A DNA stretch of 5,677 nucleotides from NCBI GenBank assembly GCA_008534395.1, contig SHMQ01000058.1, positions 1 to 5,677 of the forward strand, read 5' to 3'. How positions within the stretch are numbered: position 1 is the first letter of the stretch; each line of letters opens with the position of its first letter. Position numbers and translations under genes: made by a program. The notes under the pieces are model-generated. The model was not told the DNA's origin. It searched no databases and saw nothing but the letters and a program-made list of their open reading frames with translations. This stretch comes from Candidatus Acidulodesulfobacterium acidiphilum. Its GTDB lineage: Bacteria > SZUA-79 > Acidulodesulfobacterales > Acidulodesulfobacteraceae. Positions 2 to 5,677 of the stretch are shown in pieces.

Positions 2-427
2 CAGGAAACCGCCGTTACGGGTTCTGCGTCTATGAACTCTAACAATACCGCTTTTAGCTATACTGGCGTAAACGGTAACCAGCATAACAATATTTCTATT
101 AATAATACGGTAAATAACGCCACGCAGCAAGAATGCGTAGTCCAGCAAACGACGACGAACGCATCTGTTTCAAGTTCCGTTCAGGCTACTACCGCTACGC
201 AGAATACGCCTACGTCGGATACCACTACTAATACGGAAACTTTAAACTGCACGAATACTGGGACGATTAATAATCCGTCTTGGAATTGTCCCGTACCAAA
301 AGGCTATACGATACAAACCGACTGCACAGCCGCAAGTAATATTAATAACAATAACTTCGCTCCGGCTATGGTAGAACTTCAGGTATTAGACAAAGCGGGA
401 AGTTCTTTGATTTGTTCGGCAAACTAA
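2..427 (+). CDS. Asn/Thr/Ser-rich probable exported protein, 3' part only
   Basis: I do not recognise a family. The frame is open from base 2 to the TAA at 425-427, with no stop before the first ATG at 32. That ATG has no ribosome binding site at a usable distance, so the gene most likely starts upstream of the window and ATG 32 is an internal Met. The visible part is dominated by Asn, Thr, Ser, Gln and Ala (for example HNNISINNTVNNAT), with few charged residues and no membrane segment. Counting from Met at base 32, Cys lie at 35, 73, 86, 98 and 128. The last 45 residues are less repetitive and may form a small disulfide-bonded domain (WNCPVPKGY to SSLICSAN). This composition fits a secreted, surface or pilus-associated protein, and its position just before tra genes suggests a transfer-apparatus component, but that is inference. 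TraN-like, adhesin or minor pilin identities cannot be separated from this fragment. Confidence 0.6.
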   Translation, partial: QETAVTGSASMNSNNTAFSYTGVNGNQHNNISINNTVNNATQQECVVQQTTTNASVSSSVQATTATQNTPTSDTTTNTETLNCTNTGTINNPSWNCPVPKGYTIQTDCTAASNINNNNFAPAMVELQVLDKAGSSLICSAN

Positions 428-505: not shown

Positions 506-1339
506 ATGAACAACCATACGACGCAATTCCCTAACTTTAGAAAAACAATTAATATATTAATTCTATTTATCGTTTTATTTTTGTTTACGCCCGTTAACGC
601 TTATTCTTTTTTTTCTATGGGTAACGGTTATTTTAACGGGAATAAAGGCAAGGGATGGTTTTGGTATCAACGGAAGCCTAAAAAAAATAAAAATAAGAAT
701 AAAATAAAGAAAACCTTAAAACTTCCGACTACAAAAACGTTAATGGCTATGCCGGCTCTGCAATTTAAAAAACTTTTAAAAAAATTTAAATATGAATCTA
801 TTTCTTATCCTACGGAGCAAAATGTTTATAATTATATAAAAATTCAGTCCGTAGCCGGCGACAGGGCAAGGCAGTATGCTTATATGTGGCGTTACGTTAT
901 GACTAAATATCCGTCTTTGAATTATATGAATACTCACGTAGGCGGTTCTTCGCAATATAGGAATATTATTTCGTATCAGATTAATCACAATAAAAAAATA
1001 GAAATTTATAAAAAATTAAGAAAACGAATGGGACTTGTTTTATTTTATAATCCAAGCGACCCATATTCGTTGCAAGAATTATTGCAGTTAAAAATCGTAG
1101 CCAACGAATACGGTTTTTTCTATACGAAAGTTAATGCCGAAAATCACCCTAACGAAGTTAAGAGGATGGGCATTATAAAATTACCGGAAATAGTAATGAT
1201 TTATAAGCATTCAGACGGTAAATTATCGCATTATCCCGTTACTATAGGATTAAGGACACAGGTTAAAATAAAACAAAATATACTCTACGATTACGAAGCT
1301 TTCGTAAAACACAAACTTAATTATGGAAATAAATATTAA
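506..1339 (+). CDS. traF: TraF, F-type conjugation periplasmic assembly protein (thioredoxin-like fold, no CXXC)
   Basis: TraF is a periplasmic protein needed for pilus assembly in F-type type IV secretion systems. The start is fixed at 506: an in-frame TGA lies at 491-493 and no other start codon precedes the hydrophobic stretch. Residues 1-32 form a signal peptide (RK at 12-13, hydrophobic core 15-28, likely cleavage after VNA). A GWFWY motif at 50-54 matches the N-terminal signature of TraF proteins. A very Lys/Asn-rich linker (57-70) follows. Residues 101-140 carry the family pattern YPTEQNVYNYIKIQ, DRARQYAYMW and YPSLNY. The C-terminal thioredoxin-like part starts at GLVLFYNPSDPYSLQE (176-191), where redox-active members have CXXC; here there is none, and the whole protein has no Cys. 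F plasmid TraF also lacks CXXC, so the role is probably structural. No clear ribosome binding site precedes the ATG. The 3' end overlaps traW by 17 bases. Length (277) is close to the family norm. Confidence 0.85.
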   Translation: MNNHTTQFPNFRKTINILILFIVLFLFTPVNAYSFFSMGNGYFNGNKGKGWFWYQRKPKKNKNKNKIKKTLKLPTTKTLMAMPALQFKKLLKKFKYESISYPTEQNVYNYIKIQSVAGDRARQYAYMWRYVMTKYPSLNYMNTHVGGSSQYRNIISYQINHNKKIEIYKKLRKRMGLVLFYNPSDPYSLQELLQLKIVANEYGFFYTKVNAENHPNEVKRMGIIKLPEIVMIYKHSDGKLSHYPVTIGLRTQVKIKQNILYDYEAFVKHKLNYGNKY

Positions 1340-2117
1340 AGAAAAAGCTAAAAAAGCAGGTAAGGTCGTAAAAAAAACGGTTTTTACTCTAAATTTAATT
1401 GTAACCGTTATTTTTTTTGCTTTTATAGTAGCGCTTATTATAGTTAATCTTATAAAGGGCGCACAAGGCGAAACGATAAATTTAGGCGTTTACGGTAAAA
1501 CTTACAGGTTCAGGGAAAAAAATCTACTGTCTGTTATAAAAAATAAAGCTAAAAAAATTAATTGGCAGGAAGTTATAAAACGCTCTCATATAAAAAGGCA
1601 GGTAGAAAACTACCAGCCTTACAATCAGGAAGTTTCATTGCCTACTGCGTTGAATAGTAAAGTTTTTGAGCCGTCTATGTACTATACTTTAAAGTTTAAT
1701 ATAAGAGATTCTAAAGGCAACATAATTTATCCTAAAGGCTTTAAATACAAAATTACTAATTATATATTTTTACCGAATTTCTTAGTCGTAATAAACGGAG
1801 ATTCTAAAAAGCAAATAGAGTGGTTTAAGCATTCCAAATTTAAAAACAACATAGCGGTAATGCTTTTAATAACCAAAGGCGACTATTATAAACTTGAAAA
1901 AAAACTCGGCATTCCTGTTTATTTTTATATGAAACAGTTACAACAAAGGTTTAAATTAAAAGCCGTCCCAAGCGTAATATGGCAGAAAGGAACTACGATT
2001 TACGTTAAGCAATACGGCAAAAATGCGGTTTATAAAGCCATTAAAAATATTAAAAAACATAAAAAAAACAATAAAGCGTTAAAAGAATCAGGGTTATTAA
2101 ATCCTGATTATAAATAG
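1323..2117 (+). CDS. traW: TraW, F-type conjugation pilus assembly protein
   Basis: TraW acts in the periplasm with TraU and TrbC in F-type pilus assembly. After a basic N-terminus (KEKAKKAGKVVKK), residues 20-44 form one long hydrophobic segment that may be a signal peptide (possible cleavage after AQG, 47-49) or an uncleaved anchor. The mature N-terminus has the family start INLGVYGKTYRFREKNLL (52-69). The core shows PSMYYTLKFNIRDSKGNIIY (117-136) followed by PKG, matching the TraW pattern of aspartate-rich strand, then YPKG, then a proline-led FLPNFLVVINGDSKKQIEW segment (149-167). GIPVYFY (196-202), QRFKLKAVPSVIWQKG (208-223) complete the TraW C-terminal half. The tail (237-264) is Lys/Asn-rich. 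It contains no Cys. The ATG lies within the end of traF and has no good ribosome binding site, so translation is probably coupled to traF. traU follows nine bases after the stop, in the same traW-traU order as F plasmid. Confidence 0.85.
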   Translation: MEINIKEKAKKAGKVVKKTVFTLNLIVTVIFFAFIVALIIVNLIKGAQGETINLGVYGKTYRFREKNLLSVIKNKAKKINWQEVIKRSHIKRQVENYQPYNQEVSLPTALNSKVFEPSMYYTLKFNIRDSKGNIIYPKGFKYKITNYIFLPNFLVVINGDSKKQIEWFKHSKFKNNIAVMLLITKGDYYKLEKKLGIPVYFYMKQLQQRFKLKAVPSVIWQKGTTIYVKQYGKNAVYKAIKNIKKHKKNNKALKESGLLNPDYK

Positions 2118-2126
2118 GTAGATTAT

Positions 2127-3152
2127 ATGCGTAAATATGTAAAAATTATATTATTATCCTTTTTTATACTTTTCGGCTTCAGCTTAAAATCTTACGCCGG
2201 AGTTTGCAAAATAGGTGATACTATCTTTACCGAACCGCCCGCCGGTATTTTTACGTCAGTCGATTGGGCGGGAATATTTCCGATAAGGGTAGGAGGAGTA
2301 ACTGTAGTCCCCGGCATACCGGATGCTCAGGATTATTTACCGCCCGTTTGTCTTTGCCAGAGATTGCCGCCGCCAGCGCCGCCTATCCCAGGAATAACTT
2401 TTTCTATGTGGCAGCCGGCGCATATAACCGAAGTAGTTCAGGAGCCTTTTTGTTTTCAGGCGTTTGGAGTAGCGATTCCTAATCCTACCGGAGTTTACGG
2501 CTACGGCGACCAGTCTAAACATCCGAAGCATTATTCGTTTTATCAGTCGCATTATTATAATTTTCCTATACTAAATATTTTAGGCATAGCGCAAGATATA
2601 ATCTGTTTACAGTCGCCATATGGTTCTAATATTAATATACCTTTTATATCAGAGCCCGACCCTATGTGGCAGTCCGATATATTGGCTACTTTTGGAAGTC
2701 CTGAAGCCGTCCTTTTCGCAAATCCCATAGCTCAGATGTCCTGCACTGCGGATTCTGTCGCTGCTCAAACTTATCAACCGTTAGACCCTATGTTTTGGTG
2801 TATGGGTTCTTGGGGCGGAGTATTTCCTATCGACGGAGACATAGGGGGTTCAAACGACCCCGTTCAAAATGCGGCGGGTATTGCGGCTAAAACGCAGTTT
2901 TTAATGCACGAGTATTTAGACCAGTTCGGTACTGTCGGACCGCCTACTTATATGGGCGTATGCCAAGATTATCCGGATCCTATATGGATACAATCTGCAG
3001 TAAGATACGATTTATCAATGCCGGTGCCGGAGCCGGTTGTTCAACCTATAGGACAGACCGGTATAGTTTGGTCTATGTTGAAAGATTTGCCTGCATTAGG
3101 TGGCAATTACGTATTTACTACGTTTACGGAGCAGGACTGCTGCGCTTTCTAA
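2127..3152 (+). CDS. traU: TraU, F-type conjugation periplasmic protein
   Basis: TraU is a disulfide-rich periplasmic protein required for DNA transfer and pilus assembly in F-type systems. The N-terminal signal peptide is clear (hydrophobic 7-19, cleavage after SYA at 24). Family landmarks occur in order: DWAGIFPIRVGGVTV (46-60), LPPVCLCQRLPPPAPPIPGI (71-90) with the CXC pair at 75/77, MWQPAHITEVVQEPFC (94-109), SEPDPMWQSDILATF (175-189), FANPIAQMSC (197-206), PLDPMFWCMGSWGGVFP (218-234), and the C-terminal DCC (337-339). Ten Cys in total (27, 75, 77, 109, 160, 206, 225, 279, 338, 339) suggest several disulfides, all after the signal peptide. Length 341 is close to F TraU. A weak AGG lies eight bases before the ATG. 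Its base composition is visibly more GC-rich than traF and traW, largely because it is rich in Pro, Gly and Ala. This is the most secure identification in the window. Confidence 0.95.
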   Translation: MRKYVKIILLSFFILFGFSLKSYAGVCKIGDTIFTEPPAGIFTSVDWAGIFPIRVGGVTVVPGIPDAQDYLPPVCLCQRLPPPAPPIPGITFSMWQPAHITEVVQEPFCFQAFGVAIPNPTGVYGYGDQSKHPKHYSFYQSHYYNFPILNILGIAQDIICLQSPYGSNINIPFISEPDPMWQSDILATFGSPEAVLFANPIAQMSCTADSVAAQTYQPLDPMFWCMGSWGGVFPIDGDIGGSNDPVQNAAGIAAKTQFLMHEYLDQFGTVGPPTYMGVCQDYPDPIWIQSAVRYDLSMPVPEPVVQPIGQTGIVWSMLKDLPALGGNYVFTTFTEQDCCAF

Positions 3153-3184
3153 ATGCTATCAACGTAAGTGTGAGGTAGTCCGTT

Positions 3185-3868
3185 ATGTTTGCTATCAATA
3201 GAAATGTTTATAACGAAAAAGAAATTCGGTATTTTTCGAGTTTAATTAATTATATAGAAAATTTTCAAAAGAATAATATGGAATATTCAGAGATTCAAAA
3301 TCAATTCGTAGAGGTATTTCTTATGGCATTAGGCGCAAGGGACGCCTATACAAAAGAGCATTCCAACAGACTTTCTTTTCTTGCAAGGGAAATAGGCAGA
3401 GAGTTAAAACTTCCGCCTGTTGAAATTAAAAAAATAGTTTTAGCGGCGAAACTGCACGATATAGGAAAAATCGGCATAAGCGACGCTATTTTATTAAAAC
3501 CGTCGAAATTGACGGACGAAGAATTTGACGAAATCAAAAAGCACCCTGTAATAGGCTTCGATATGCTTAAAAATCTAAGCATTTTTTCGCATATCTCGGA
3601 CTACATACTTTATCACCACGAAAAATTCGACGGTTCGGGTTATCCGGAGAAAATAAGCGGCGACGATATTCCGTTCGGCGCAAGAATTATAAGCATAGTA
3701 GATGCGATAGACGCAATATTAACAAAAAGGTCTTATAAGGAACCGAAACCCGTCGAATATGCCGTTCAGGAATTAAAGAAAAATGCGGGAACGCAATTTG
3801 ACCCGATGATAACTAAATTCGCTATAAAAGTTATAGAGGAGAATAAAGATGTTTTTAAAATCAAATAA
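3185..3868 (+). CDS. HD-GYP domain protein, predicted c-di-GMP phosphodiesterase
   Basis: HD-GYP proteins hydrolyse the second messenger cyclic di-GMP in the cytoplasm. All landmarks are present: EHSNR with His59 (first metal ligand), HDIGKIGI at 91-98, KHP with His120, HHEKFDGSGYP at 144-154 (the HHE and GYP signatures), DAIDAILTKRSYK at 173-185 and GTQFDP at 202-207. No catalytic residue is seen to be missing, so activity is expected. The first ~45 residues are not a receiver, PAS or membrane domain, so this is nearly a bare catalytic domain with a short helical lead-in. GAGGT at 3172-3176, eight bases before the ATG, supports the start. It lies 32 bases after traU and overlaps the next gene by 20 bases, so it is probably co-transcribed with the tra genes. 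HD-GYP proteins are not a standard part of an F-type transfer operon; a role in linking c-di-GMP to pilus or biofilm control is inference. Confidence 0.93.
   Translation: MFAINRNVYNEKEIRYFSSLINYIENFQKNNMEYSEIQNQFVEVFLMALGARDAYTKEHSNRLSFLAREIGRELKLPPVEIKKIVLAAKLHDIGKIGISDAILLKPSKLTDEEFDEIKKHPVIGFDMLKNLSIFSHISDYILYHHEKFDGSGYPEKISGDDIPFGARIISIVDAIDAILTKRSYKEPKPVEYAVQELKKNAGTQFDPMITKFAIKVIEENKDVFKIK
3835..3841 (+). promoter_or_regulatory. Ribosome binding site of the cytochrome c gene, inside the HD-GYP gene
   Basis: AGAGGAG lies seven bases before the ATG at 3849. It decides the start of the cytochrome gene: the next Met in that frame (residue 115) lies beyond the haem site. It sits within the 3' end of the HD-GYP gene, so ribosomes finishing that gene could re-initiate here. 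Confidence 0.75.
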
Positions 3869-4268
3869 GACCGAAACATTATATCCCTACAGTGCAAATA
3901 TTTTGATAAAACGGCGAAATAATAATATTAACGCAAAAAACAAAAGAGTGTTTTTAATTCTATTATTTATTTGCCTTGCTATATTTGCTTATTTTATTTT
4001 TTCGAAAAAAGCTCACGCTTTTACTAATGACAATATAGAAAAGGGCAAGCAAATAGTAATTCAAAGCGGTTGTATAAGATGTCATAGCTTTGTTAAAGGT
4101 AAAAGAATCGACAATATAGCAACTCTTGCCGGCTGGGGAAATAAACATCTTTCGATTAAACAGACGGAAAAGGCAATTAGAAGTTGCAGAATGGATCCAT
4201 ACTGTTCGCAAATTTTAACAAATAAGCAGGTTAAATATGTTGCATATTATCTTAATTCATTAAAATAG
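3849..4268 (+). CDS. Membrane-anchored monohaem c-type cytochrome
   Basis: This is a small class I-like cytochrome c. Residues 1-33 are a basic, polar N-terminal extension (KRR at 21-23, KNKR at 30-33), followed by one hydrophobic segment at about 34-51 (VFLILLFICLAIFAYFIF) and then KKAHA, which is either an anchor or a late signal peptide cleavage site. The haem domain begins with DNIEKGKQIVIQSGCIRCH, with the CXXCH attachment site at 75-79. Met115 in CRMDPYC is the probable distal haem ligand and is flanked by Cys113 and Cys119. The domain closes with the usual C-terminal helix (NKQVKYVAYYLNSLK). Only one haem site is present. Haem attachment happens in the periplasm, so the domain should face that side and carry electrons there; its partner is unknown. 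The gene overlaps the HD-GYP gene by 20 bases and has its own ribosome binding site. A CcdA-type gene, which serves cytochrome c maturation in many bacteria, lies two genes downstream. Confidence 0.88.
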   Translation: MFLKSNKTETLYPYSANILIKRRNNNINAKNKRVFLILLFICLAIFAYFIFSKKAHAFTNDNIEKGKQIVIQSGCIRCHSFVKGKRIDNIATLAGWGNKHLSIKQTEKAIRSCRMDPYCSQILTNKQVKYVAYYLNSLK

Positions 4269-4277
4269 GGGGTTATT

Positions 4278-4460
4278 ATGTCGAAAAAAGAAAGTTTTAT
4301 TGGTAATTTTAAAAATATAGAAAAGTCAAAAGATAAAACTTATATTAATAATTATGTCGAGAAAGATAAAAATATAGACCCTGTCGAAAAAGAGAAAATA
4401 AATAAAATCAAGATACAGCAGGCGTTAAAAGAGTTTTCAAAAGACAATTTAATTGATTAA
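4278..4460 (+). CDS. Small charged protein of unknown function (60 residues)
   Basis: I do not recognise a family. The ATG at 4278 follows a GGGGG run by about five bases, a plausible ribosome binding site, and the gene fits exactly between its neighbours (9 bases after the cytochrome, 20 before the TraC-like gene) without overlap. The product is Lys/Glu/Asp/Asn-rich, has no Cys, signal peptide or membrane segment, and is expected in the cytoplasm. Residues 37-53 (EKEKINKIKIQQALKEF) could form an amphipathic helix; the N-terminal half looks disordered. Being directly before the cytoplasmic TraC-like protein, it could be its small partner, but nothing in the sequence shows this. The clean spacing and ribosome binding site make it more likely real than a chance frame. 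Confidence 0.6.
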   Translation: MSKKESFIGNFKNIEKSKDKTYINNYVEKDKNIDPVEKEKINKIKIQQALKEFSKDNLID

Positions 4461-4468
4461 TAATATAA

Positions 4469-4475
4469 AAGGAGG
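4469..4475 (+). promoter_or_regulatory. Strong ribosome binding site of the TraC-like gene
   Basis: AAGGAGG lies five bases before the ATG at 4481, close to a perfect anti-16S match. It shows that the short TraC-like protein really starts here, rather than being the remnant of a longer gene that has lost its 5' half. Confidence 0.8.
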
Positions 4476-4480
4476 CGGCA

Positions 4481-5521
4481 ATGTTTAAATCATCTTTTAC
4501 GTTGGATTTGTTTAAATCTAATGCCAGTTATAACGGATATATTTTAGGCGGACAGGGTAAAAATACGTTAATTGACAATATGGTTATGGATTATTTACAC
4601 AATGGAGATACTAAAATATTTATTTTTGATAGCAATAAAAAACATATTAGATTAGTAGAGAATTTGGGCGGAAATTACATAAGCATCAATTCTAAAAGCA
4701 CGTTTTCCGTTAATCCTTTTTCTATAATTAAGACCGAAGATGACTTTATGGAATACAAGGATTATTTAATAAATTTTTTATACGCTATAGGAGTTACATC
4801 TGAAAATACAGATAAAGATTTAAACGAACATTTTAGATTATATATGATAACTGCTTTATATGCAGTACAAGACGAATGCAAAGATTTTGAACTAATAGAT
4901 ATATATAATTGGCTATCAAGGCAAAACGATGAAACGTTGCAACCATATATAGACAATCTAATGCCTTTTTGTCCTGAAGGTAAATACGGCAAGTTTTTCT
5001 CCGGAGAATTAACATTAAATTTCGGAGATAGTTTACTTTCGGCGATAGATTTCAGCGATTTATCCTACGACCCTAAATTTAAAGTCTCTATTCAGGCGGC
5101 GGTAATGTTTTATATGGGGAAAATTTTTTACGATTACAACCTCCCTATTGAGAAAACCCTAATATTTATCAACCAGCTTAAAGAATTTGTTAAAGATTTA
5201 CCGAATGCGCATGGTTTTATAGACAAATTATACCGTGAAGCAAGAAGGAATTATATTTCTGTCGTTACGTCAATAGAATCGGTTAAAGACCTATACGATA
5301 ACGATAAAATATCGCAGGCGGGAAGAGCTATTATAGTAAATTCAGAATGGAAATTCTTTTTACCGCAGGTTAAAACCGAAAACTCCTCAAAGGAAATGAG
5401 TGACAAGCTTTGTTCTTATATTTCAGACACGGAATTTACTTTAATAAAATCCTTAAGATACAATGATGTTTATATCAAATCTAACGATAATTCGAATAGC
5501 GGAATTATGATAAGATTTTAA
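4481..5521 (+). CDS. Stand-alone TraC/VirB4-like motor domain with degenerate ATPase motifs
   Basis: TraC/VirB4 proteins are the cytoplasmic ATPases that drive F-type and related type IV secretion. This 346-residue product corresponds to their C-terminal RecA-like half; family members have about 800 residues, and the N-terminal half is absent. Family landmarks in order: NGYILGGQGKNTLIDNMV (18-35, Walker A region), KIFIFDSNKKHIRLVENLGG (45-64), VNPFSII (77-83), LMPFCPEGKYGKFFSGE (160-176), TLIFINQLKEF (226-236, Walker B region), GFIDKLYREARRNYISVVTS (245-264), and AIIVNSEWKFFLPQ (283-296). Key residues have changed: Walker A keeps Gly26-Lys27 but has Asn28 for Ser/Thr and Ile21 for the first Gly. 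The Walker B Asp-Glu pair is Asn231-Gln232. The conserved TQ is Thr263-Ser264. ATP hydrolysis is therefore unlikely. There is no signal peptide. The frame is intact and the ribosome binding site strong, which argues for a functional pseudo-ATPase. An active TraC is expected elsewhere in the element. The assignment rests on motif order by eye. Confidence 0.75.
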   Translation: MFKSSFTLDLFKSNASYNGYILGGQGKNTLIDNMVMDYLHNGDTKIFIFDSNKKHIRLVENLGGNYISINSKSTFSVNPFSIIKTEDDFMEYKDYLINFLYAIGVTSENTDKDLNEHFRLYMITALYAVQDECKDFELIDIYNWLSRQNDETLQPYIDNLMPFCPEGKYGKFFSGELTLNFGDSLLSAIDFSDLSYDPKFKVSIQAAVMFYMGKIFYDYNLPIEKTLIFINQLKEFVKDLPNAHGFIDKLYREARRNYISVVTSIESVKDLYDNDKISQAGRAIIVNSEWKFFLPQVKTENSSKEMSDKLCSYISDTEFTLIKSLRYNDVYIKSNDNSNSGIMIRF

Positions 5522-5538: not shown

Positions 5539-5677
5539 TTGCAGTTATTATTTACGCCCAACGTATCATTTTTAGTAGCTTTTTTAGCGGGATTGTTTTC
5601 TTTCATAAGCCCCTGCGTGTTTCCTTTAATACCTTCTTATTTATCGTATATATCCGGCTTGTCTATGGACGAACTTA
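5539..5677 (+). CDS. ccdA: CcdA/DsbD-type transmembrane thiol-electron transporter, 5' part only
   Basis: CcdA passes reducing equivalents from cytoplasmic thioredoxin across the inner membrane to periplasmic thiol proteins, notably those that keep apocytochrome c haem-site Cys reduced. Only the first 46 residues are in the window, starting with TTG at 5539. They include a hydrophobic first segment (about 9-23) and the family motif SFISPCVFPLIPSYLSYISG (21-40). Cys26 in SPC is the expected first redox Cys; the second, in a later membrane helix, is outside the window. The gene starts 17 bases after the TraC-like gene, so it is probably in the same transcript, and its neighbour two genes upstream is a cytochrome c, a likely client pathway. 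A full-length DsbD would carry an N-terminal periplasmic domain before this region; starting directly at the membrane domain favours CcdA. A fused C-terminal thioredoxin domain cannot be excluded. Confidence 0.88.
   Translation, partial: MQLLFTPNVSFLVAFLAGLFSFISPCVFPLIPSYLSYISGLSMDEL

Follow-up and report, generated by a model that had tools for sequence, protein, structure and literature searches.

Introduction

Pseudo-ATPases regulate many ring motors. Among the VirB4-family ATPases, the closest described counterpart of the gene reported here is Rickettsia VirB4b (RvhB4-II), a full-length (810 aa) degenerate VirB4 paralog whose NTP-binding cleft has seven substitutions (PMC2653234). VirB4b is the faster evolving copy, and its authors left open both a relic and a new function (PMC2653234). 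Here we describe a 346-aa stand-alone relative of TraC, which we call pTraC. Like VirB4b, it is an additional VirB4-family copy in a genome that also has a normal one, and its NTP site is altered; on sequence it falls into the same type, since its genome encodes two full TraCs and the altered residues are common to its relatives. The two differ in architecture and setting: VirB4b is full-length, VirB-type, and encoded on the chromosome at a distance from other vir genes, whereas pTraC is an F-type ATPase domain only, lies inside a tra operon, and carries a P-loop deletion. A preliminary description of this DNA knew of no TraC pseudo-ATPase paralog of this form. In the literature we likewise found none described in truncated form and none for F-type conjugation, but the statement has to be narrowed for the full-length degenerate VirB4 paralog of Rickettsia (PMC2653234). 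That form is already known; by its sequence, the truncated F-type TraC form appears to be new.

Results

The window, meaning the whole stretch of DNA analyzed, is the entire 5677-bp contig C58 of the Candidatus Acidulodesulfobacterium acidiphilum genome (G000). It carries part of an F-type conjugation cluster, with every gene on the + strand:

2..427, + strand: TraN-like gene, 3' end (Pfam F_T4SS_TraN 0.008, below cut-off; complete 767- and 803-aa homologs in genome G016)
506..1339, + strand: traF (PF13728, 2.9e-35)
1323..2117, + strand: traW (TIGR02743, 7.4e-28)
2127..3152, + strand: traU (PF06834, 1.5e-76)
3185..3868, + strand: gene for an HD-domain (HD_5) protein (PF13487, 2.3e-37)
3849..4268, + strand: gene for a c-type cytochrome whose N terminus has a hydrophobic stretch (PF00034, 6.6e-5; CxxCH)
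4278..4460, + strand: conserved 60-aa ORF (homologs in genome G002 and in both G016 clusters)
4469..4475, + strand: Shine-Dalgarno sequence AAGGAGG of the TraC-like gene (AAGGGGG at the same place in G002)
4481..5521, + strand: pTraC, 346-aa stand-alone TraC C-terminal-domain paralog (TIGR02746, PF19044, 88% homolog, AF2 fold)
5539..5677, + strand: 5' part of a gene for a CcdA/DsbD-type membrane protein, truncated where the contig ends (80-96% to homologs in G002, G014, and G016)

The HD_5 and cytochrome c genes (3185-4268) lie inside the tra operon, and their ends overlap. The 60-aa ORF had no family match in profile searches and occurs both with and without an adjoining pTraC; the G002 copy of the CcdA/DsbD-type gene matches PF02683 at 9.9e-19. 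Elsewhere in G000 there are two full-length TraC clusters, C2 and C5, with traB, traE, traH, traG, and the like, and the sole traU of the genome is the window's copy. Since the full TraC clusters are on C2 and C5 and the only traU is in the window, the tra genes of this bacterial family are spread over at least two modules. Genomes G007, G014, G017, G024, and G026 contain F-type TraC genes or fragments, yet traU was not found in their assemblies, where contigs are possibly missing. We looked for F-type TraC and TraH in the G002 assembly and found neither; the G002 element runs off the end of its contig.

pTraC starts with the ATG at 4481, and AAGGAGG ends five bases 5' of it. In profile searches the protein matched the F-type TraC model TIGR02746 at 5.6e-37 (model positions 419-738 of 800), TIGR00929 at 5.1e-21, and PF19044 at 3.7e-7, the last exceeding the cut-off of that family. 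It resembles F-type TraC (TIGR02746, PF19044) in its homology over positions 419-738, its fold, and its place among traF-traW-traU genes; it differs in the absence of the N-terminal half, of the C-terminal tail (about the last 50 residues), and of the ATPase motifs, and in a shortened P-loop. With a TIGR02746 score of 127 bits against a curated cut-off of 567, and 346 aa against about 800 at full length, pTraC falls outside that family as defined, and the functional TraCs of the same bacterial family are likewise under this cut-off (maximum, 511 bits). An AF2 model built from a six-row alignment (pLDDT 76.6; pTM 0.78) has the VirB4/HerA-FtsK fold of the VirB4 C-terminal domain. The nearest solved folds are the C-terminal domain of Thermoanaerobacter pseudethanolicus VirB4 (4ag5/4ag6; Z 26.9, rmsd 3.6, 317 residues aligned) and R388 VirB4 (TrwK; Z 24.1), which, unlike pTraC, have native-ATPase motifs and are 10-18% identical to it.

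We then considered the active site. The reference set comprised 11 functional TraCs, seven from the family to which G000 belongs and four encoded by named plasmids, where functional means full length with intact motifs as judged from sequence; the L090 TraC was left out of the tree and of the invariant-residue count. Alignment gave the following features:

4544..4564, + strand: L22-GGQGK-N28, a degenerate P-loop that lacks two residues relative to the 11 functional TraCs
4628..4645, + strand: D50-S-N-K-K-H55, replacing the conserved D-x-G-R-S-Y
5171..5176, + strand: Asn231-Gln232, replacing the Walker B Asp-Glu; same in G002
5234..5245, + strand: retained Arg252 and Arg255, both invariant among functional TraCs
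5273..5278, + strand: Ile265-Glu266, replacing the conserved Thr-Gln

None of the motifs expected of a TraC (Walker A GxxGxGKS/T, Walker B DE, and Thr-Gln) is present in pTraC. Its P-loop reads NGYILGGQGK, versus NGYIVATSGAGK in functional TraCs, and the pattern N-x10-K-S, found in 11/11 of these, has become N-x8-K-N: Lys27 is kept, and the Walker A Ser is replaced by Asn28. The Gly-x-Ser-Tyr motif is missing at residues 52 to 55. Asn231 is encoded by AAC (5171-5173) and Gln232 by CAG (5174-5176). The Thr-Gln position was set by an ungapped alignment anchored on SVV...D-L-Y. Among 26 positions invariant over the 11 functional TraCs, pTraC has lost 8/11 at the active site and 2/15 elsewhere (Fisher P 0.004), and the G002 copy has lost 9/11 and 2/15 of the same positions (P 0.0009), with an active-site set that we based on known VirB4 motifs and defined once we had seen the alignment.

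Much of the preliminary description agrees with these results. The sequence bears out its ORF, coordinates, AAGGAGG spacing, and AAC/CAG codons; the TIGR02746 match at positions 419-738 confirms a TraC/VirB4 C-terminal ATPase half without the N-terminal half; and the AF2 match to the VirB4 C-terminal domain (Z 26.9) fits its statement that the rest of the fold is kept. Its replacements S28N, D231N, and E232Q are right against the 11 functional TraCs. It was mistaken in taking Ser264 for the replaced Gln of TQ, where the alignment gives Ile265-Glu266, and it missed two lesions, the two-residue P-loop deletion and the loss of Gly-x-Ser-Tyr. Profiles, alignment, and model thus support a TraC-derived protein that is predicted to be catalytically dead with its fold kept. 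Retention of Lys27 and of the overall fold could be taken to mean that pTraC, its unusual residues notwithstanding, remains an active ATPase or one that binds nucleotide, but with a short P-loop, with the Walker B acids and Thr-Gln all replaced, and with the GK glycine also gone in G002, this is highly improbable.

Within the same bacterial family, genomes G002, G014, and G024 also encode degenerate relatives of pTraC. The nearest (L018:3863-4903; 88% identity) is in G002, which belongs to a different genus; it stands in the same gene order, carries the same replacements, including Asn-Gln, and has additionally lost the glycine (G26) preceding the P-loop lysine. The others are a stand-alone TraC domain of 319 aa with an HD-like gene upstream in G024 (contig C45, public as JAJZJX010000069.1, MAG LSA5.bin80) and one of 300 aa in G014 (C24), with a near-identical 3' fragment on C21. 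In all three copies the P-loop is two residues short and the Walker B Glu is missing; overall, the shortening occurs in 5/5 degenerate sequences and 0/11 functional TraCs. Stand-alone copies in G024 and G014 have lost noncatalytic invariant residues about as often as catalytic ones, and all degenerate copies keep long open frames. Judged from these homologs, the pTraC lesions are not a private mutation. Of the checks proposed in the preliminary description, those made on sequence came out in its favor: the nearest homolog also has Asn-Gln and is free of stop codons, the distant stand-alone relatives all lack the catalytic Glu, and TraC profiles match.

Two neighbors of these copies deserve mention. 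Directly behind the 319-aa G024 copy is a 600-aa partly degenerate TraC-like gene (L019:2348-4150) with a shortened N-domain; its product has the same P-loop shortening, keeps GKT, and has Asp-Arg at Walker B. In G014, the contig and strand of the 300-aa copy also carry, 15.6 kb downstream of it, a TraC gene of 690 aa that is cut by the contig end and has intact GAGKS and DEA. A 208-aa ORF preceding the G014 copy was ruled out as the missing N-half, having no TraC similarity.

Pattern scans of genome_contigs and viral_contigs returned no close relative outside the family, the sole return being the G024 record, and a phylum-level search added no genome beyond the order's 30. Among the matches listed in a PLSDB search, the top ones were ordinary TraCs at 24-27% identity. 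A single origin of all degenerate copies was compatible with the tree (AU p 0.53) without being demonstrated by it; the P-loop deletion common to them speaks in its favor.

We compared the clusters at the slot that follows the 60-aa ORF and precedes the CcdA gene. In the window the order is HD, cytochrome c, 60 aa, pTraC, CcdA, and the G014 copy also has a cytochrome upstream and CcdA downstream; because the copies share surroundings, one old accessory gene is suggested. In G016:C76 the slot is empty, with no pTraC, and the flanking tra genes are 90-95% identical. In G016:C82 it holds an unrelated 128-aa ORF, and a pTraC remnant there is unsupported (shuffle p 0.05-0.37). By eye, the C82 variant tra cluster also contains a TnpB-like 442-aa ORF and the start of an IscB-like ORF (L056:8196-9524 and 11123-11356). 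Tandem near-identical DsbA-like genes of 221 and 223 aa lie at L065:8309-8980 and 9473-10138.

Between the window and L018 clusters (506-4460), dS climbs within 4 kb from 0.009 in traF to 1.7 in the cytochrome gene, a pattern suggestive of recombination between elements. With dS varying this widely among adjoining genes, both clusters are mosaics, and ratios for individual genes need caution. Read with this caution, pTraC in the window versus G002 has a dN of 0.063 and a dS of 0.222, giving a dN/dS of 0.29 (NG86) or 0.39 (YN00). We used a neutral simulation in which base changes matching the observed ones in number and kind were put at random sites. Amino-acid changes numbered 43 against 55.8 expected (P 0.0019), and stops 0 against 3.6 expected (P 0.021). 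There is no indel over 1041 bp, and a Shine-Dalgarno sequence is present in both. For the same genome pair, dN/dS is 0.07 for traU, 0.12 for traW, and 0.10 for the HD gene; functional TraC has 0.02-0.04, about one-tenth of the pTraC ratio. Because the ratio is below 1 in simulation, yet far above those of traU, traW, HD, and functional TraC, pTraC is constrained, but weakly.

Slow decay is the main and serious rival to reading pTraC as an accessory subunit. As a relic, pTraC would be a truncated TraC duplicate under weak constraint, slowly decaying, with no stop or frameshift yet and nothing of note done; we regard this as possible though doubtful. A ratio of 0.29-0.39, ten times that of functional TraC, is in line with decay, whereas the deficits of amino-acid changes and stops are not. 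Similarly, the absence of the gene from G016:C76, the additional loss of G26 in G002, and the very long tree branches and lost structural residues of the other stand-alone copies fit a relic, but the 1041 bp without indel, the Shine-Dalgarno sequence in window and G002, the concentration of losses at the active site in these two, and the long open frames of all degenerate copies argue against it. The earlier view of a gene maintained and not simply decaying therefore holds insofar as dN/dS is below 1 (P=0.0019), and is weakened by the tenfold excess over functional TraC and by the close sister cluster G016:C76 without the gene.

Several F-type clusters can coexist in one genome: G000 has two with TraC, and G016 and G014 have further ones. 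Together with the variable slot and the fast evolution of pTraC, this would by inference also suit an inhibitor of other elements (fertility inhibition), with the dead domain joining the TraC ring of another F-type element, whether co-resident or incoming, and stopping its transfer. pTraC lies inside its own cluster's tra operon, however, and the TraC of its own element would have to be spared, so we consider this role quite unlikely.

Discussion

Because three further genomes of the family have related copies with these defects, pTraC looks like an accessory part of the DNA-transfer machine, with slow decay allowed for. Our best explanation, put forward tentatively and with a little less than even confidence, is that pTraC is a non-hydrolyzing TraC C-domain serving as an accessory subunit or modulator of TraC. 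An F-type TraC would have been duplicated, and the duplicate would have lost its N-terminal half and ATPase site and been retained in the conjugation cluster as an accessory gene. Its product would then be made and bind functional TraC by C-domain to C-domain contacts, and a non-hydrolyzing subunit in the TraC ring might slow, gate, tune, or block the ring. In R388 VirB4, the central-outer dimer forms via N-domains only, and central-hexamer neighbors touch via both domains (PMC9259494). From this contact pattern, a lone C-domain could reach the ring by C-domain contacts only (PMC9259494). A more specific version is a dedicated pseudo-motor in the F-type systems of one family, in which a single-origin clade of N-domain-less, ATPase-dead TraCs would join or cap the TraC ring and control pilus assembly or DNA transfer; we think this rather unlikely.

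A natural C-domain-only, non-hydrolyzing TraC would be a tool to probe TraC-ring contacts and the switching-off of mixed rings, and pTraC would carry the precedent of Rickettsia VirB4b over to mobile elements.
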